From an uncultured bacterium (GTDB taxonomy: Bacteria; Desulfobacterota; Desulfobaccia; Desulfobaccales; 0-14-0-80-60-11): a stretch of 49,429 bases of DNA. The notes beneath the pieces were generated by a model that worked only from the letters and a program-made list of their open reading frames with translations, was not told the origin of the DNA and searched no databases. Position numbers and translations under genes: made by a program. The DNA is taken from assembly GCA_937943575.1 (NCBI GenBank), contig CALEAV010000029.1:1-49429 (forward strand), given 5' to 3'. This document shows, piece after piece, positions 25,314 to 34,050 of this stretch; positions within the stretch are counted from its first letter, which is position 1; each line of letters opens with the position of its first letter.

Positions 25314-25634
25314 GGACCCTCCAGGGGACCGGCCAATCTGAAACGATGCTGGCCAGCCAATCAAGGGTGGCGGGAAAGGTGGAGAAAAGGGCAGACGACC
25401 TCTCTTCCGCCGCCCCTGAAGTTTTAGAGGGGGAGAGACGGGGGAAGGTGTTCTCCTCTTCACCTCAACCTTGGCCTCGATTCTCCACGTTTTCGGGGGG
25501 TGAGAGAGGGCCGCCAGGAAGGACGGGGTGTCCCCGGTTCTGTGGCCATTCCCTCAAAAGACACTTTCGCAACAGTTCATGGTTGTCAGTCTCAAATTGA
25601 GGCTCCCAAATCTCCATGTGCTTCAGAAAAGCCG
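25314..25634. other. Intergenic gap before the UPF0280 gene
   Basis: About 320 nt. The open frames are chance ORFs with basic, Pro/Ser-rich translations. The downstream half is less GC-rich and may hold the promoter of the following gene, but no convincing -35/-10 pair was identified. Confidence 0.5.
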
Positions 25635-26363
25635 ATGGCGTCCCCTGAACCCCGCACCTATCGCACCCGCATGGCCCGGGAGGGTCTGGTGGCCTTCCGG
25701 GTGGCGGTGCAGCAGACGGATCTCCTCATCCTGGCGGCCCGGGAGCTGAAGGATCTGGCCCGGGAGACGGTGGTGCAGGAACGGGCCAGGCTGGAGAGCT
25801 ACATCGCCGCCCACCCTGACTTTCTCAGCACCTTGACCCCCTGGTCGGAGGACCCCTTTGCGCCGCCGGTGGTGCGGGAGATGGCGGCCGCCAGCCGGGT
25901 GGCCCAGGTGGGCCCCATGGCGGCGGTGGCCGGGGCCCTGGCCGAGCGGGTGGGGCGGGCCCTCATGCCCTTCAGCGCCGAGGTCATCGTGGAAAACGGC
26001 GGGGACATCTTTCTGGTCCTCACCCGGCCGGCCACCGTGGCCCTGTATGCCGGGGCCTCGCCCTTGAGCCGCCGGGTGGGCCTCAGAATCGCGCCTGAAG
26101 ACACTCCCCTGGGGGTGTGCACCTCGTCGGGGACGGTGGGCCACTCCCTCAGTTTCGGCCGGGCCGACGCCGCCTGTGTGCTGGCGCCCGGCGCGGCGCT
26201 GGCCGACGCCCTGGCCACCGCCCTGGGAAACCGGGTGCGCAGACCGGAGGATATCGACCCGGCCCTGGCCTGGCTGGCGGACATCCCCGGCGCCCTGGGC
26301 GCGGTAGTGGTGGTGGGGGGGACCCTGGGCGCCTGGGGCCGGGTGGAGCTGCTCCCTCTGTGA
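25635..26363 (+). CDS. UPF0280 family protein (ApbE-superfamily fold)
   Basis: 242 residues from ATG 25635; the frame is open further upstream but that part is not family-like. The hallmarks are YRTRM near the N-terminus, FRVAVQQTDLLILA, VENGGDIFL (about 117-125) and CTSSGTVGHSLSFGRADA. UPF0280 proteins are related to the FMN-transferase ApbE fold and are frequent in methanogens and sulfate reducers; their reaction is not established. There is no signal peptide, so the protein is cytosolic. No obvious partner gene is adjacent. Confidence 0.9.
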   Translation: MASPEPRTYRTRMAREGLVAFRVAVQQTDLLILAARELKDLARETVVQERARLESYIAAHPDFLSTLTPWSEDPFAPPVVREMAAASRVAQVGPMAAVAGALAERVGRALMPFSAEVIVENGGDIFLVLTRPATVALYAGASPLSRRVGLRIAPEDTPLGVCTSSGTVGHSLSFGRADAACVLAPGAALADALATALGNRVRRPEDIDPALAWLADIPGALGAVVVVGGTLGAWGRVELLPL

Positions 26364-26585
26364 CCATGAGGGGAGACTGCTCCCGGCTTGCAGGGACTGC
26401 CGCCATGATGACTCCCTGGCATTCCTGTCCCCCGGCCTTTCTTGTTCCACAAGAATACCCGCCCCGACTTCGCCAACCATGCTCATTTTTTCTTTAAAGA
26501 TGAGAATTTTTTTGCTATGTGAGAGGTTATTCCCTCCCTTTCCTTTTTCTGCGGCAGGGCGGGTGCGACTCAGGCGACCCCGGCG

Positions 26586-28763
26586 ATGACGGCTGACCGC
26601 GCAACCCCGGACCAGGAGGCGGGGGGCTCCCCGCCCCCCTCGGTGCCTCCATCTCTCCGCCGGGCCCTGGAGCTCCTGGCCGCCCGGAGGGAGGAGGGCT
26701 CCTTTCTCCGGGACCTCTGCCGTCTGGCAGTGGAAGCCGCGGGTGGAGCCGCCGCGGTGATCCTTCTTCCCCGGCAAGGGAGGCTGCGGCCGGCCGCCTG
26801 GGCCGGAACCCTGCCCCCGGCGTTTCTTGCCGCCACCTTCGGCCTCGAGGATGACTCGGGGCAGCCTTTCAGTCAGGCCTATCATTCCGGGAGCACCATC
26901 TGGCACACCCGGTGGGGGGAGGGCATGGCGCCGCCCCCCTGGGCCACGGCCCTTCGGGACGAAAAGCTGAGCGCCTGCCTGGCGGTGCCGCTGCAAGTGG
27001 CCGGCAGGAGTGTGGGAGTGCTGGCGCTCCTGGGTCCCGCTGAGTGGCGGTTCAGCAGCGAGCAGCAGGACCTGGCCGAGCTTCTGGCAGTCGTGGCGGC
27101 GGCGGGACTTGCGGCCCGGCGGGAGAAGGAGGAGGGCGTGGGTCGGCGGGAGAATGAGACCCAAAGCCGGGAGGCTGTTGCCGCAGCCCCGGGGATTTTA
27201 TGGGAGGGGGAAGCCGGGGTGGGGAGATTTCAGGCCCGCCTGCCCGGCTTCTGTCTGATCGCCGCCGATGAGGCCCTGGCCCGCCTGCTGGGCTGGCCGG
27301 AGGCCGACAGCCTGTTGCGGGAATTTGTCCCCTCCCAGAGGGTGGCGGAGGCCGCGGCCTGGGAACGCCTCCTGGCGCAGGCGGCCCGGGGACGGGTGGC
27401 GGGCGTGGAGGTCCCCTTCCGCCGCCGGGACGACACGGTGGCCACCTTGCGCCTGTGGGGGGAGTGGGATGAGGCCCGGAAGGTCTTTGCCGGGGTGGCC
27501 GTGGACGTGAGCCGTTGCCGGGACCTGGAGGAGGAGCTGTCCAAACTGCGGCAGTCGCATCGGGTTCTCAAGGAGCGGTATCTGGGAGCCAGCCTCCTCT
27601 CCCAGGCGGAACAGGAGGAAGTGAACCGGGAACTGGCCCGGGAGCGCCAGGTGGCGGAGAGCGCCCTGGCGGCCTGCGAGGCGGGGGTGGCGGCCTTCAC
27701 CCGGGAGGGCCGGGTGACCCATTGGAACCGGTCCCTGGAGGCTCTCACCGGCCTGAGACGGGAGGAGGTGCTCGGCCGGGAGCTGGGCCGGGTGCTGCCG
27801 GGATTAGCGGCGGCGGTGGACCTCCAGGGGCTCAGGGAGACCCAGCCGCTCCCCGATCTCCGCCGGCCGGTGCCATTGCACCCGGGAATGCCCCCGGCGG
27901 GTTATGACGCGCTTTTGACCCCGCTGCGGGATGACCAGGGAGAGGCCGACGGCGGCCTCTTGGTGTTGCGGCCTCTGGCGCAAGTGCCGGCATCCCCGGG
28001 GGACGTCTGCGGAAGGGATATCGGAGAGCGGGTTGGCCGAGGCCTCTCGCTTCCGGCCCCGGAGGAGGGCGAGCGCCTGCGGCGGGAGCGCCTGGAGGCC
28101 CTGGGGAGTCTGGCGGCCTCCCTGGCCCGGGACTTCGACCAGATCCTGGGGGTGATGCTGGGCTACACGGAGATGGCCCAGGCCGCCCTGCCAAAGGAGG
28201 ATCCGGCCAAGGCCAGACTGGCCCAGGTGCTGAAGGCCGGCCGCCGGGGACGGGACCTGGTGCAGCAGATTCTGGCCTTCAGCCGCCCCTGGGAACGCCG
28301 GCCGCCGGCCCCGGGGGCCCAGCCCGAGAAGGCTAGAGAGGAGCCTGGAGGGCCGGCTCCTCCGCGTCAGGCCCGGGGGCGGATTCTTCTGGCCGCCGGG
28401 GAGGAGAGCCAGGGGGCCCTCTGGCGGGAGATCCTCCACAGTCTGGGCTTTGAGGTCCACTTGGCCCTCAACGGCCAGGAGGCCCTGGAGCTTCTCCGGA
28501 CCCGGCCGCAGGAGGTGGATCTGCTGATTGCGGATCAGGATCTGGCCCCCTTAAGCGGTCTGGACCTGGCCCAAGAAGTGTGGTCCCTCCTTCCGGGCCT
28601 GCCGGTGATCCTCAGTCTTGACCCGTTGGATCTCGTCACCCTGGAGAGGGCCAAAACCGCCGGTGTGCAGGATTTCGCCCTGAAACCGTGGTCCTTAAGT
28701 GAACTCACCGCCGCCCTGGACCGGATTCTGCCCCCTCCCCGACCGAAGGGCTTGGCCTCTTAA
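26586..28763 (+). CDS. Degenerate hybrid histidine-kinase-like protein (GAF-PAS-PAS-DHp-receiver; no ATPase domain)
   Basis: 725 residues. A GAF-like domain (about 25-180) has SACLAVPLQVAGRSVGVLALLG. Two PAS-like regions follow (about 205-310 and 355-440), joined by a long helix (310-355). The dimerisation helix then reads LGSLAASLARDFDQILGVMLGYTEMA, where family members have A-H-D-F-N-N: the phosphoacceptor His is R515. The HATPase domain is absent; the protein goes straight to a receiver-like domain (598-715). There D650 and K700 remain, but the acidic pair is A603-A604-G605. So neither autokinase activity nor normal Mg2+-dependent phosphotransfer is expected. It is encoded 27 nt before a similarly degraded NtrC-like gene. 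Confidence 0.85.
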   Translation: MTADRATPDQEAGGSPPPSVPPSLRRALELLAARREEGSFLRDLCRLAVEAAGGAAAVILLPRQGRLRPAAWAGTLPPAFLAATFGLEDDSGQPFSQAYHSGSTIWHTRWGEGMAPPPWATALRDEKLSACLAVPLQVAGRSVGVLALLGPAEWRFSSEQQDLAELLAVVAAAGLAARREKEEGVGRRENETQSREAVAAAPGILWEGEAGVGRFQARLPGFCLIAADEALARLLGWPEADSLLREFVPSQRVAEAAAWERLLAQAARGRVAGVEVPFRRRDDTVATLRLWGEWDEARKVFAGVAVDVSRCRDLEEELSKLRQSHRVLKERYLGASLLSQAEQEEVNRELARERQVAESALAACEAGVAAFTREGRVTHWNRSLEALTGLRREEVLGRELGRVLPGLAAAVDLQGLRETQPLPDLRRPVPLHPGMPPAGYDALLTPLRDDQGEADGGLLVLRPLAQVPASPGDVCGRDIGERVGRGLSLPAPEEGERLRRERLEALGSLAASLARDFDQILGVMLGYTEMAQAALPKEDPAKARLAQVLKAGRRGRDLVQQILAFSRPWERRPPAPGAQPEKAREEPGGPAPPRQARGRILLAAGEESQGALWREILHSLGFEVHLALNGQEALELLRTRPQEVDLLIADQDLAPLSGLDLAQEVWSLLPGLPVILSLDPLDLVTLERAKTAGVQDFALKPWSLSELTAALDRILPPPRPKGLAS

Positions 28764-28790
28764 GCGGGGGGAGGCCAGGAGGTGTCGGCC

Positions 28791-30182
28791 ATGTCATACG
28801 CCCCCATCAGGAAGTCTCACCTGTCCGAGCCCGGAATTTCCGTCTGGGGCGGCCAGGCCCGGGTCCTGCTCATTGAGGATGACGACCTTTTCCGGGAGAT
28901 GCTGGCGGACCTGCTGAAGGAGATGGGGCATCGGGTGGAGACCGCCGCCAGTGTGGCTCAAGGGGGAGCCAAGGCCGCAGAGGACTCCTGGGATCTGGTG
29001 CTGGTGGACCTGCGGCTGCCCGATGGCAGCGGCCTGGAACTCCTCCCTTCCCTGCAGCGATTACCCCGTCCTCCCCGAATCTTATTGATTCTTGCGGCCG
29101 GGGAGGGGGTGCCGGAGCTGCCCCCGCCACTGGCCGGGGTGGAGGGCTTTATCCGGCGCAACGCCTCTCTCCGGGAGACCCGCACCCTCCTGAGGAAGGC
29201 CCTGGCTTTTCGGGAGTCTTCGTCTTCGGAGGCGGTATATCTGCCGCTGCAGCTGGCGGAGGTGGTGGGCCGCAGTGCCGCCATGTGGCCCTGCTTTGAG
29301 GCGCTGGCCCGGGCCGCCGGCCAGGAGGAGCCGGTCCTGATTCTGGGGGAGGCGGGCACCGGCCGGAGTCTCTTTGCGCGCCTCCTGCATGCCCACAGCC
29401 GCCGCAGCCTAGGCCCCATGGTGAGCGTCTCCGCTGCAGCCCTGAGCACCGGGGAGGGCCATCTCCCTTCTGCCCCGGCCTCGCCGTGGCCGACCCTCAG
29501 CCGCCAGGCCCGGGGGGGGACCCTCTTTCTCCGGGAGGTGGAGGCCTTGAGTCCGCAGCTCCAGCACAGCCTGGCACATCTGCTCTCCCGGCGCCAGGCC
29601 GCCCCGGGGGTGGGCTTCCGGCTGGTGGCGGCCGGCTCTCTGGATCCGGGGGCCCTGGCCCGGGACGGCACCTTCCTCCCGGAGCTGTGGGAACACCTTG
29701 CCGGGCTGATAATCCGCCTGCCCCCTCTGCGGGAGCGGCAGGAGGACATCCCGGAGCTGGCCTTCTTTCACCTGATGCGCCTCTGTCCCCCCGGGAACCG
29801 GAAAGGCCTGGGGCCCGATTTTCTGGAGGCCCTGGTGGACTACCCCTGGCCGGGGAATGTGGCGGAGCTGGTGGAGGTGCTCACCCAGGCCCTCCGGGCC
29901 GCGGGGGCCGAGCCGGTGCTCAGGGCCTGGCATCTGCCCCCGGGCCTGCGGCCGGTCCGATCCCCCCTTTCTGCGGACCCCCCCCCGGCACCGGACCCCG
30001 GCCTCCCGGCTGAAGTCAGCTTCAAGGAATACCGGCGCCGGGTCGTGGCCCAGGCTGAAAAGGCCTATATGGAAGCCCTGATGATCCGGGTGCAGCACAA
30101 CGTCAAGGAGGCCTGCCGCCTCTCCGCCCTCTCCCTGCCCCGGCTCTATGCCCTGCTGAAAAAATACCATCTCCGGGCCTGA
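28791..30182 (+). CDS. Degenerate NtrC-like regulator (receiver - AAA+ without GAFTGA - Fis-type HTH)
   Basis: 463 residues; ATG 28791 has AGGAGG 8 nt upstream, and a GTG at 28782 lies inside that ribosome site. The receiver keeps the acidic cluster (LLIEDDD) and the Asp in VLVDLRLPDGSG, but the later Thr and Lys positions appear changed (ILAAGEG, FIRRNAS). In the AAA+ domain, Walker A is GEAGTGR with R192 in place of Lys, the GAFTGA sigma-54 loop is deleted, Walker B reads LFLREV with R248 in place of Asp, and GNVREL is GNVAEL. The arginine-finger segment LPPLRERQEDIPEL and the C-terminal HTH (NVKEACRLSALSLPRLYALLKKY) remain. It should bind DNA but not act as a sigma-54 ATPase. Confidence 0.87.
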   Translation: MSYAPIRKSHLSEPGISVWGGQARVLLIEDDDLFREMLADLLKEMGHRVETAASVAQGGAKAAEDSWDLVLVDLRLPDGSGLELLPSLQRLPRPPRILLILAAGEGVPELPPPLAGVEGFIRRNASLRETRTLLRKALAFRESSSSEAVYLPLQLAEVVGRSAAMWPCFEALARAAGQEEPVLILGEAGTGRSLFARLLHAHSRRSLGPMVSVSAAALSTGEGHLPSAPASPWPTLSRQARGGTLFLREVEALSPQLQHSLAHLLSRRQAAPGVGFRLVAAGSLDPGALARDGTFLPELWEHLAGLIIRLPPLRERQEDIPELAFFHLMRLCPPGNRKGLGPDFLEALVDYPWPGNVAELVEVLTQALRAAGAEPVLRAWHLPPGLRPVRSPLSADPPPAPDPGLPAEVSFKEYRRRVVAQAEKAYMEALMIRVQHNVKEACRLSALSLPRLYALLKKYHLRA

Positions 30183-30266
30183 GGGCCGGCGTTCATGGCT
30201 TACACCCGGGAAGGCGTTGCCAAGCGGGGTCATTCCCGCTACACTGGCACCCGGAGAGGTGAGAAG

Positions 30267-31241
30267 ATGAGCGGCAGACATCTGGCCCAGGCGGCGGCCC
30301 TGGCATGTGTGGCCCTGATGCTGGCGGCCTGCAGCAAAAAGCCGGAGGCCCCGGTGCGGTCCCTCAAACAGTCGGAGATCGCCAAACTGCAGCGCATCTA
30401 CGGCCCCGGCAAACTGGAGCCCCCCTCCGAGGACATCAAAGGCCTCCTCCCCATGCGGCAGGAGGCCCTGGGGGATATGCTCCTGGCCAAGCGGGAGTAT
30501 GACAGCTCCCTGGTGACCTACCTCCAGGTTCTGGCCGAGCAGCCTGAGCGCCATGACATCCGCTACAAGCTGGGGGTGGCGCTCCTCCTCACGGGCCAAT
30601 ATGAGGCGGCCCGGCAGGAGTTCTCCCGGGTGCTGGCGGCCCAGCCCCGGATGCTGGAGGCCCGGGAAGGGCTGGGGCTGGCCTATCTCCAGGAGAAGAA
30701 GAACTCCGAGGCCATCCAGGAATTCCGCCAGCTGGTGGCCCAGGACCCCGGCCGGGGCAAATCCCGCTATCTCCTGGGGTTGGCCACCCTGCTCGCCGGG
30801 CGGCCCCGGGACGCCATCCCGGAGCTGGAGGCGGCCGGCCGGCTGGAGCCGAAAAACCCCATGCCCTTCGCGGCGCTGGGGCAGGCCTACCTGGACCTGA
30901 AAAACCCCGCCCAGGCCCAGAGCTGGGTGAAGCGGGGTCTGGAGATCGACCCCAGCCACAAGAAGCTCAACCATCTCCTGGGGCTGGCCCTGGCCGGCCA
31001 GGAGCGCTATGACGAGGCCTTCGCCGCTTTCCTCAAGGCCGGGGATGAAGCCCAGGCCTACAACAATGTCGGGGTGCATTTCTATCTGCACGGCAGATAC
31101 GAAGAGGCGGCCAAGTGTTTCCAGAAGGCCCTGGAGCTGAGGCCCACCCATTACCAGGAGGCCAAGGTCAACCTGGACCGGGCCCTGGAAAAACTGCAGA
31201 GCCAGATGCTGGAGGGGGACAAGAAGAAGGCGGCCCAATGA
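30267..31241 (+). CDS. TPR-repeat lipoprotein
   Basis: 324 residues from ATG 30267 with GGAGAGGTGAG upstream; the longer frame has no ribosome site. The signal peptide ends in lipobox LMLAAC, so the mature protein starts at a lipidated Cys near residue 22. About seven tetratricopeptide repeats follow, for example RYKLGVALLLTGQYEAARQEF, ending in a Lys-rich tail. It is 84 nt after the NtrC-like gene and possibly in one transcript with it. It looks like a scaffold for an envelope complex (compare PilF- or BamD-like TPR lipoproteins), but no specific complex is indicated. Confidence 0.9.
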   Translation: MSGRHLAQAAALACVALMLAACSKKPEAPVRSLKQSEIAKLQRIYGPGKLEPPSEDIKGLLPMRQEALGDMLLAKREYDSSLVTYLQVLAEQPERHDIRYKLGVALLLTGQYEAARQEFSRVLAAQPRMLEAREGLGLAYLQEKKNSEAIQEFRQLVAQDPGRGKSRYLLGLATLLAGRPRDAIPELEAAGRLEPKNPMPFAALGQAYLDLKNPAQAQSWVKRGLEIDPSHKKLNHLLGLALAGQERYDEAFAAFLKAGDEAQAYNNVGVHFYLHGRYEEAAKCFQKALELRPTHYQEAKVNLDRALEKLQSQMLEGDKKKAAQ

Positions 31242-31729
31242 GAGGAACGGGGGCCGCAACCCCGCCGGCCTCAACTCTACCGGCAGGCGGCGGGGGGCAG
31301 GCGTCCGCGGCCTTCTCCCGCCAAGGCTGATTCTTCCCTGTTTTCGGGCTGCCGCGACCAAGGCGTCAGGGGGGGGTGGAGGAGAGGCGCCCTCCCCGGA
31401 TCCGCCCCACCCCCGGAGGGACAAATCGACTATTTTCCCGCGGTGCGCCGGCTCGGTCGCCCCGCCCGCCATCCCCCGCCCCTCCCTTAGAATCCTGCCG
31501 CCGTTCCACAACCTGCCGCAGCCCGCTACCGCCCGGAGAGCCGGCCGGGCTCCGGGGACGCCGGGGGAGCCCGGGAGCAAGGCCGCCCCAGGCTCCCAGG
31601 GGCGCGCCCTTATCCGGGCCCCCTGCGCGTGCCACTTCCTGGGGCGATGCGCCCTTTCCTTCCGGGGACCCGCCCCCGGCCCGCCTTTTCCGCCAGCCCT
31701 GAGGGGAGAAGGAAAAATTTGGGGCCTCC
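31242..31729. other. GC-rich intergenic stretch upstream of the isc-like operon
   Basis: About 490 nt with no credible gene: the frames on both strands are Pro/Gly/Arg-rich and unsupported. A short G/C hairpin just after the TPR gene (gggggccgcaacccc) could help end transcription but has no T-tract. The last 50 nt turn AT-rich and carry the next promoter. Confidence 0.5.
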
Positions 31730-31758
31730 TTGACAAGCAAAGCCTACTAAATTAGTAT
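31730..31758 (+). promoter_or_regulatory. Predicted sigma-70 promoter of the isc-like operon
   Basis: Perfect -35 TTGACA (31730-31735), a 17-nt spacer and -10 TAGTAT (31753-31758), in an AT-rich island in otherwise GC-rich DNA. The leader before ATG 31793 is about 28 nt and includes the ribosome site GGAGG. Confidence 0.75.
31745..31757. promoter_or_regulatory. Palindrome overlapping the -10, candidate Rrf2/IscR operator
   Basis: TACTAA-A-TTAGTA is a perfect 6-bp inverted repeat around one central base, covering the -10 element. The operon encodes an Rrf2-family regulator with three cysteines, and IscR-like repressors bind AT-centred palindromes over promoters of isc operons, so autoregulation is the simplest reading. 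Confidence 0.55.
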
Positions 31759-32061: not shown

Positions 32062-33252
32062 ATGGGGATCGCCTATTTTGACCATGCCGCCGCCACCCCG
32101 GTGAGGCCGGAGGTCCTGGAGGAGATGCTCCCCTATTTCCGGGAGCGTTTCGGCAACCCCTCGGCGGTCTATGATTTGGGGAGTGAGATCAAGGAGGTGC
32201 TGGAGGAGCAGCGGGCCAAGGTGGCCCGGCTCATCGGGGCCAAGCCCCAGGAGATCATCTTCACCTCCTCCGGGGCCGAGGCCAACAATCTGGCCGTCAA
32301 GGGCGCGGCGCTGGCGCACCTCAAGAAGGGGCGGCATGTCATCGTCTCCGGCATCGAGCACCATTCGGTGCTGAACGCCGCCCGCTATCTGGAGAAGTTC
32401 CACGATTTTGAGGCCACCTTCCTGCCGGTGGACCGGTATGGCCAGGTGGATCCGGAGCGGCTGCAAAAGGCCATCACCCCGGCCACGGTGCTGGTCTCCA
32501 TCCAGGTGGCCAGCAACGAAATCGGCACCATCCAGGAGGTGGCCGAGCTGGCCAAGGTCTGCCGGGAAGCGGGGGTGCTCTTCCACACCGACGCGGTGGC
32601 CGCGGCAGGGCAGATTCCCCTGGACGTGGAGGTGCTGGGAGTGGATCTCCTCACCCTCTCCGGCCCGGCCCTGGGGGGCCCCAAGGGGGTGGGCGCCCTC
32701 TACTTCCGCCGGCGCCTGCGGCTGGTGCCCCAGATCCACGGCGGCATCCAGGAGGACGGCCGCCGGGGCGGCACGGAGAACATCCCCGGCATCGTGGGGC
32801 TGGGAAAGGCGGCGGAGCTCACCCAGGCGGAGCTGGCGGCCAAGGGGCCGTATTTGGCTGGCCTGCGGGAGAAGCTGGTGGCAGGGGTCCTCGGCTCCGT
32901 GCCCGAGGCCATCTACACCGGGCACCCGGAAAAGCGCCTGCCCGGCCACGCCAGCTTCTGCTTTGAGGGGGTGGAGGGGGAGGCCCTGGTGTTTCTCCTG
33001 AGCCGCCAGGGGGTGTATGCCAACACCGGCTCGGCCTGCGCCTCCAAGGCCCTGAAGGTGTCGCCGGTCCTGTGCGCCATCGGCCTCACTCCGGCGGTGG
33101 CCCAGGGCTCCCTGGTCTTCACCCTGGAGACGGGCAACACCGACGCCGACCTGGAGGCGGTCTTCACCCATCTGCCCCCGGCGGTGGCCCGGCTGCGGTC
33201 CTTTTCGCCGGTGTGGCACAAGAAGATGGCCGCCCAGGGCGCAGCCCTATGA
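32062..33252 (+). CDS. IscS/NifS-like aminotransferase-V protein lacking the PLP lysine
   Basis: 396 residues, AAGGAG ribosome site. The overall match to group I cysteine desulfurases is strong: YFDHAAATPV, RFGNPSAVY, SSGAEANNLA, the IEHHSVL histidine block, and the flexible-loop cysteine C326 in NTGSACAS. But the lysine that holds PLP (SGHK-x2-GPKG in E. coli IscS) is A203 in SGPALGGPKG, with P202 replacing the His before it. The PLP-contacting Gln of DATQSVG is A180 in DAVAAAG; D177 is kept. Archaeoglobus fulgidus IscS is a known homologue also lacking this lysine. A normal desulfurase cycle is unlikely. It sits between tusA-like and rrf2 genes, the latter overlapping by ATGA. Confidence 0.9.
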   Translation: MGIAYFDHAAATPVRPEVLEEMLPYFRERFGNPSAVYDLGSEIKEVLEEQRAKVARLIGAKPQEIIFTSSGAEANNLAVKGAALAHLKKGRHVIVSGIEHHSVLNAARYLEKFHDFEATFLPVDRYGQVDPERLQKAITPATVLVSIQVASNEIGTIQEVAELAKVCREAGVLFHTDAVAAAGQIPLDVEVLGVDLLTLSGPALGGPKGVGALYFRRRLRLVPQIHGGIQEDGRRGGTENIPGIVGLGKAAELTQAELAAKGPYLAGLREKLVAGVLGSVPEAIYTGHPEKRLPGHASFCFEGVEGEALVFLLSRQGVYANTGSACASKALKVSPVLCAIGLTPAVAQGSLVFTLETGNTDADLEAVFTHLPPAVARLRSFSPVWHKKMAAQGAAL

Positions 33253-33680
33253 AGCTTTCGGCCCGCAGCCGCTACGGAGCCCGGCTGCTTTTGGATGTGG
33301 CCCGGCACGGCCAGAACCGGCCGGTGCACCTGACGGAGGTGGCCCGGCGGGAGGAGCTGCCCCTCAAGTTCCTGGAGCAGATCGCCATCCCCTTGCGGCA
33401 GGCCGGGGTCCTGAAAAGCGTCCGGGGCCCTAAGGGAGGCTACCTTCTGGCCCGGCCGCCGACGGAGATCAGCCTGGCGGAGGTGGTGCGGCTGCTGGAG
33501 GGCGAAGAGCTGATCGACTGCCTGGCCGACGCCAGCCTGTGCCATCGGGTGGGGACCTGCCCTACCCGCCGGGTCTGGCAGGAGGCGGGCCAGGCCTTTT
33601 ATGACAAACTGCAAAGCATCACCCTGGCCGACCTCCTCACGCCGGGCCAGGGGCTGTGGGAGGATACAGGAGATGTATAG
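33249..33680 (+). CDS. Rrf2-family transcriptional regulator (IscR-like)
   Basis: 143 residues; ATG 33249 overlaps the IscS-like stop (ATGA). The winged helix runs MKLSARSRYGARLLLDVARH ... LPLKFLEQIAIPLRQAGVLKSVRGPKGGYLLARP, the Rrf2 signature. C91, C98 and C104 correspond to the three IscR Fe-S ligands (C-x5-C-x5-C), here spaced x6 and x5, so cluster binding is plausible. It probably senses Fe-S status and controls its own operon through the palindrome at 31745-31757. The 3' end overlaps iscU by 8 nt. Confidence 0.92.
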   Translation: MKLSARSRYGARLLLDVARHGQNRPVHLTEVARREELPLKFLEQIAIPLRQAGVLKSVRGPKGGYLLARPPTEISLAEVVRLLEGEELIDCLADASLCHRVGTCPTRRVWQEAGQAFYDKLQSITLADLLTPGQGLWEDTGDV

Positions 33681-34050
33681 CCCCATTGTCATGGAGCATT
33701 TCAACCATCCCCGGAACGCCGGGGTGATGGAGGATGCCGACGGCATCGGCGAGGTGGGGAATCCCGCCTGCGGCGACATGATGACCTTTTACATCAAGGT
33801 CAAAGATGGTAGAATTGTCGATATCAAATTCCAGACGTTCGGATGTGTAGCTGCCATCGCGGTGTCCAGCATGGTGAGCGAGATGGCCAAGGGCAAGACG
33901 CTGGAGGAAGCCTCCCGGATCACCAACAAGGAGGTGGCCGACGTTCTGGGGGGCCTGCCCAAGAACAAGCTGCACTGCTCCAATCTGGGGGCGGACGCCC
34001 TGGCCCGGGCCATCGAGGACTACCGCCGCAGGCACGGCCTCGCCGACTGA
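33673..34050 (+). CDS. iscU: Fe-S cluster scaffold IscU/NifU-N-type
   Basis: 125 residues from ATG 33673, with GGAGG nine nt upstream inside the rrf2 gene. All scaffold ligands are present: C33 and D35 in GNPACGD, C58 in FGCVAA, C102 in LHCSNL. The LPPVK recognition motif for HscA is not intact (GLPKNKLHC), as in NifU-like scaffolds, and no hscA/hscB genes are nearby. It assembles [2Fe-2S]/[4Fe-4S] clusters from iron and sulfur. The usual sulfur donor IscS is replaced here by a homologue lacking the PLP lysine, so sulfur may come from sulfide or from the TusA-like carrier. Confidence 0.94.
   Translation: MYSPIVMEHFNHPRNAGVMEDADGIGEVGNPACGDMMTFYIKVKDGRIVDIKFQTFGCVAAIAVSSMVSEMAKGKTLEEASRITNKEVADVLGGLPKNKLHCSNLGADALARAIEDYRRRHGLAD

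Follow-up and report, generated by a model that had tools for sequence, protein, structure and literature searches.

Pseudo-histidine kinases, pseudo-receivers and sigma-54-independent NtrC-like proteins have each been described on their own, and the first two have been reviewed (PMC12632262). According to PMC10274813, the NtrC proteins of Caulobacter and Rhodobacter capsulatus have a deletion covering the GAFTGA motif and are reported at sigma-70 promoters; R. capsulatus NtrC needs ATP binding, and Caulobacter NtrC its Walker A and Walker B residues. VpsR of Vibrio cholerae, likewise GAFTGA-less and acting at sigma-70 promoters, is described as needing neither phosphorylation nor ATP (PMC10274813); it binds c-di-GMP. 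On the kinase side, DivL of Caulobacter is a repurposed pseudo-histidine kinase without kinase activity that binds a response regulator via the docking interface (PMC4211667). Here we describe two adjacent genes, encoding a kinase-like and an NtrC-like protein, in a window of 49,429 nucleotides from an uncultured bacterium of the Desulfobaccales (assembly GCA_937943575.1, contig CALEAV010000029.1, positions 1 to 49,429 of the forward strand). In this case both cognate partners lost catalysis on one branch and stay conserved, and intact relatives in sister genera, with a matching promoter difference, are available for comparison. GAFTGA-less NtrC/VpsR and DivL are the nearest precedents, each matching one half of the pair only, and we found no paper in the open-access literature on a jointly degenerate cognate pair. 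Judging from sequence, we read the locus, with a probability of roughly 0.55, as a phosphorylation- and ATP-independent, DNA-binding sensor/regulator pair that would act by binding alone.

Both genes lie on the + strand, between a UPF0280-type gene and a TPR lipoprotein gene. Residue numbers of the NtrC-like protein count from the ATG at 28791, its likely start; omega is the dN/dS ratio, estimated with a three-species codon model (bootstrap of 25 replicates).

26586..28763 (+): kinase-like protein, 725 amino acids, with GAF, two PAS, a dimerization and histidine phosphotransfer (DHp) domain without its His, no HATPase domain and a pseudo-receiver
28068..28295 (+): DHp hairpin, residues 495-570, with R515 (28128-28130) in the place of the phospho-His
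28296..28370 (+): site where the HATPase domain of intact relatives is missing (Pfam and comparison with relatives)
28371..28733 (+): pseudo-receiver of the kinase-like protein, residues 596-716
28782..30182 (+): NtrC-like protein, 466 amino acids, with receiver, AAA+ and Fis-type helix-turn-helix (HTH) domains
29364..29366 (+): Walker A Lys192 replaced by Arg
29442..29483 (+): region of the deleted GAFTGA loop, about residues 218-231
29532..29534 (+): Walker B Asp248 replaced by Arg, adjoining E249 kept
29676..29696 (+): arginine-finger segment, R296 replaced by Leu and R302 by His
29862..29864 (+): sensor-II-type Arg358 replaced by Ala
30012..30179 (+): C-terminal HTH segment, residues 408-463, intact (omega 0.114)

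In the kinase-like protein, Pfam recognizes GAF, PAS and Response_reg domains, with HisKA below the cut-off and no HATPase; in intact relatives the HATPase domain sits exactly between DHp and receiver. Position 515 is His in 30/30 intact DHp domains compared and Arg in all three species of the genus analyzed (G000, G001 and G002), and N519 of the DHp box has become Gln. The receiver has exchanged its acidic pair D604-D605 for Ala-Gly and Thr678 for Leu, and retains D650 and K700. Having neither the phospho-His nor the HATPase domain, the protein does not qualify as a hybrid histidine kinase; it fits a pseudo-histidine kinase, its catalytic parts being lost in three species while the protein stays under selection (omega 0.258, and 0.106 for the DHp hairpin).

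The NtrC-like protein has the REC-AAA+-HTH architecture of active sigma-54 enhancer-binding proteins (Pfam Sigma54_activat, Response_reg and AAA lid, and predicted fold) but not the residues of that class. K192, D248 and R358 are 99-100% conserved among 98 intact regulator homologues, K192 in all 98; here they are Arg (in all three species at K192), Arg and Ala, and a deletion has taken the GAFTGA stretch from all three species. Neither arginine finger survives (R296L in every species, R302 as H/H/E), and the receiver switch residues have gone too (T101L, K123R). What is kept are the Walker B glutamate E249, the P-loop glycines and the phospho-acceptor D73; D73, like D650 and K700 of the kinase-like protein, is found in all three species. 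Modelling with AlphaFold2, which covered the NtrC-like protein only, gave a confident REC-AAA+-HTH model (mean predicted local distance difference test score 84), whose best structure matches include NtrC1, NtrX, FleQ and VpsR. In lacking GAFTGA and keeping the HTH, the protein resembles the sigma-70 NtrC-like regulators of the VpsR and TyrR type.

The precedents differ from this locus. The NtrC proteins of R. capsulatus and Caulobacter require ATP binding or Walker residues, whereas here K192, D248 and both arginine fingers are gone. VpsR structures align to our model, but VpsR binds c-di-GMP, and the available part of PMC10274813 describes no partner pseudokinase gene for it. Unlike DivL, the kinase-like protein also lacks the HATPase domain, and its neighbour, the regulator, has lost its chemistry as well. 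An earlier sequence-only reading of the locus had listed R515, the absent HATPase domain and the vanished acidic pair in one protein, and R192, R248, the GAFTGA deletion, A358 and an intact HTH in the other; all of these hold against the intact homologues. Its description of an NtrC 'without catalytic residues' is slightly too strong in view of E249, the P-loop glycines and D73.

In two other species of the genus, G001 and G002, the pair occupies the same locus and shows the same defects (identity 72 and 67% for the kinase-like protein, 77 and 74% for the regulator). Two genomes from sister genera of the family, G003 and G005, have a homologous adjacent hybrid kinase and NtrC-type regulator with all catalytic residues: the kinases (1239-1244 amino acids) have the His, HATPase, a DD receiver and additional PAS domains, and the regulators GETGTGKE, GAFTGA, a Walker B LDE, the arginine fingers and WPGNVR. 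They also differ in having a perfect sigma-54 promoter before the pair and Flp/Tad genes after it. Because the G003 pair has the same upstream neighbours, ksgA, EamA and UPF0280, as in the genus, we take it as the positional orthologue, on synteny and similarity together, and the loss as derived. No shared neighbours were found at the G005 locus, so its relation is drawn from similarity alone. Pairs from one more genus of this family are likewise intact, as are other homologues. As the intact relatives in sister genera show, one of them in the same syntenic place, the pair descends from an ordinary hybrid sensor kinase and a sigma-54-dependent NtrC-type activator. The tree joins the genus to this subfamily with full support; the stem of the genus measures 1.28 substitutions per site, and the branches beyond it are short. 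The tree does not single out a nearest intact relative and does not place the genus beside G003 and G005, perhaps because the stem is so long.

Are these proteins still maintained? Omega is 0.258 for the kinase-like protein (bootstrap 0.21-0.31) and 0.211 for the regulator (0.17-0.28); twice the log-likelihood difference from omega = 1 is 253 and 196, respectively, and branches do not differ significantly. Intact kinases and activators of the same genomes have omega of 0.015-0.07, and valid neighbouring genes 0.04-0.11, a range that leaves out ksgA, EamA, g41636 and g44095 (wrong frame or doubtful open reading frames). No stop was seen, against about 3-6 expected per lineage under simulated neutrality, and all indels in the pair are whole codons. 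With omega far below 1, no stops and whole-codon indels, the pair is relaxed relative to working enzymes but clearly maintained, and shows none of the neutral evolution, stops or frameshifts of a pseudogene pair.

Constraint has also moved within the proteins. In at least 90% of intact regulators, 67 columns are conserved. All three species keep 38 of these, mainly structural ones, and all three have lost 22, most of them ATPase, receiver-switch or sigma-54-loop positions. In the regulator receiver, the beta4-alpha5 half, which holds the Thr/Lys switch, is 45-57% identical within the genus versus 87% between the two intact proteins, whereas beta2-beta3 is 85-91% identical versus 61%; the halves give opposite Fisher tests (P = 1e-4 and 5e-3). 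The conservation pattern of the receiver is thus inverted relative to intact pairs. Held tightly within the genus are the DHp hairpin (84-95% identity), which its omega places among the most constrained parts, the AAA lid (84-88%) and the HTH (86-95%), and the receiver retains beta1-beta3, including beta1-alpha1. Response regulators use alpha1, among other elements, to dock on DHp, so the surfaces kept here are the ones that a pair working through docking and DNA binding would be expected to keep.

Could the pair still signal by phosphate received from elsewhere? Another kinase might phosphorylate D73 or D650, giving a phospho-dependent output at sigma-70 promoters; both residues and K700 are kept in all three species, and GAFTGA-less R. 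capsulatus NtrC does require aspartyl phosphorylation to activate (PMC10274813). Yet the regulator receiver has no switch Thr and Lys, shows drift in its beta4-alpha5 half and, in G002, reads E-P at the acidic pair; the receiver of the kinase-like protein has neither acidic pair nor Thr. We consider such a reduced phospho-signalling system improbable.

The promoters differ in keeping with the proteins. A sigma-54 -24/-12 site stands directly before the intact kinase gene, TGGCATTTCTTTTGCT in G003 and TGGCATTTGTCTTGCT in G005, both matching 11/11 consensus positions scored (background P 0.0006 each), whereas the region before the kinase-like gene reaches at most 7/11 in the three genus members; sigma-54 itself is still encoded in the genus. 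The elements found instead upstream of the kinase-like gene are the following.

26493..26524 (+): sigma-70-like promoter, with TTTAAA, 17 bp and an extended -10 TGCTATGTG; contains an invariant 21-mer
26439..26455 (no strand): candidate operator TTCTTGTTCCACAAGAA, a perfect TTCTT-N7-AAGAA dyad
26490..26506 (no strand): second candidate operator TTCTTTAAAGATGAGAA, overlapping the -35

The 21-mer GAATTTTTTTGCTATGTGAGA (26504-26524) is identical in the three species and single-copy in each genome; the -35-like hexamer is TTTAAA, but TTTCAA in G002. The genus promoter resembles the intact sigma-54 site: it still has the -12 TTGCT, though no longer the -24 GG, and stands about as far from the start codon as the site in G005. 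It is possible from these sequences that a sigma-54 promoter was converted into a sigma-70 one at the same site; the gapped alignment with the G003 upstream region is ambiguous. Candidate TTCTT-N7-RAGAA dyads occur at and upstream of the genus promoter, two in G000 and G001 and one in G002. In G005 a version with N8 is found some 70 bp upstream of the sigma-54 site, at a place where one expects an enhancer. We derived the pattern from the proximal site and that of G005, and only then came upon the perfect distal dyads in G000 and G001. The exact dyad is rare genome-wide (4-6 sites per genome, several in coding sequence). Apart from the site upstream of the kinase, there is one possibly intergenic dyad, beside a Nudix-like gene in G000 and G002 (TTCTT-N7-AAGAA at L189:1501-1517 and L199:1501-1517, that is, G000:C3:96675 and G002:C70:21059); it holds a TATAAT-like stretch and may be due to chance or to a promoter.

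The gene context also separates the genus from its relatives. After the intact pair, G003 and G005 have a Flp/Tad pilus cluster with two Flp pilins, a prepilin peptidase, TadE and a CpaB-like protein:

L048:251-2837 (-) and L049:1100-3621 (-): Flp/Tad clusters beside the intact pairs

This adjacency suggests that the ancestral pair served pilus control. A search for sigma-54 sites ahead of the flp pilin genes that go with the intact pairs gave none with a score of at least 10. The genus has its Tad genes at other places; one such locus, in G001 (L184:5882-14205, contig C1), comes with a GAFTGA-bearing activator of its own, and an 11/11 sigma-54 site, TGGCACATGGATTGCA, precedes the pilin. The pair may have lost its original task when the linked pilus operon went, and one may then ask whether function went with it, the genes being caught in slow decay before any stop or frameshift. 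The absence of Flp/Tad genes beside the pair, the lost domains, the long stem and an omega about four times that of intact two-component genes would all agree with such pseudogenisation. It sits badly with an omega far below 1 and similar on all branches, with three lineages free of stops, with the invariant 21-mer, and with a constraint that is redistributed rather than uniformly weaker, and we think it unlikely. Most unlikely of all is a dominant-negative or modulatory role, in which the dead AAA+ protein would enter the rings of an intact sigma-54 activator and poison or tune them: these genomes retain sigma-54 and several intact activators and the AAA+ fold is predicted to be kept, but no activator in the genome is a close intact paralogue (the best is 36% identical) and the protein has no arginine fingers left to reach the neighbouring subunit.

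A pair acting by binding alone can be placed on top of the observed residue and domain losses, their conservation, the selection and the promoter difference as follows. On the genus stem both proteins would have lost catalytic and sigma-54 functions. The operon is without the sigma-54 promoter of intact pairs, and purifying selection preserves the domains for sensing, the hairpin of the DHp, beta1-beta3 of the receiver, the AAA+ fold with its lid, and the HTH. The GAF/PAS protein might sense a ligand or partner, and its His-less DHp hairpin might dock on the receiver of the NtrC-like protein and thereby set its oligomeric state and DNA binding. The latter protein would bind TTCTT-N7-AAGAA-type dyads at sigma-70 promoters, its own operon being the first candidate target, so that signalling would proceed without phosphotransfer, ATP hydrolysis or sigma-54 contact. 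In its fullest form, in which a two-component system was converted as a unit, a His-less DHp directly gates a non-ATPase NtrC-like DNA-binding protein, and the sigma-54 promoter was replaced by a sigma-70 one, possibly from the same site, the proposal is tentative and its details could well be otherwise.

Several points weigh against signalling by binding alone. The genus sample comprises three species, and intact two-component genes of these genomes are under about four-fold stronger selection than the pair. Residual chemistry is possible, both phospho-acceptor aspartates, K700 and E249 being retained. The operator pattern was drawn up post hoc, in AT-rich DNA, and a genome-wide search with the exact dyad found no regulon. 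Ligand sensing, complex formation, the DNA site and the sign of regulation are what we infer. The sequence-only reading fares accordingly. Its view that the losses look selected rather than random is borne out by losses shared among three species, open frames and a dN/dS far below 1, and the orthologous adjacent pairs it proposed to look for were found in two further species, with conserved substitutions and measurable purifying selection. It had also said that fully catalytic orthologues together with relaxed selection in this copy would tell against it: the sister genera are indeed fully catalytic and selection is weaker, but the frames are open and constrained, not neutral. Its proposal of binding in place of catalysis is therefore supported in part, as the retained parts suit a binding-only pair, and not in its strict form; for its sigma-70 promoters, the promoter evidence fits sigma-70 over sigma-54, with DNA binding itself still conjectural.

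Other features around the pair can be listed briefly.

30217..30245 (+): TTGCCA-N17-TACACT, a sigma-70-type promoter shared by all three species, ahead of the TPR lipoprotein gene
30267..31241 (+): TPR lipoprotein gene directly downstream of the pair, a possible target

The TPR lipoprotein is found across the family; in G003 its gene and the pair lie on separate contigs. Long antisense open frames lie opposite the pair, at 25623-27164 (-, 513 amino acids) and 29409-31736 (-, 775 amino acids); we rejected them as genes, such frames being typical of G+C-rich coding DNA. Further downstream, 32062-34050 holds a row of genes for a NifS-like cysteine desulfurase, an Rrf2-like regulator and an IscU-like scaffold, judged by eye from the translations. 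An Rfam scan returned one tRNA and nothing else.

If our reading is true, this locus shows how a phosphorylation circuit turns into a purely binding-based one, and together with the intact pairs of the sister genera it would offer a natural before-and-after comparison for finding the surfaces through which two-component proteins signal without phosphate.

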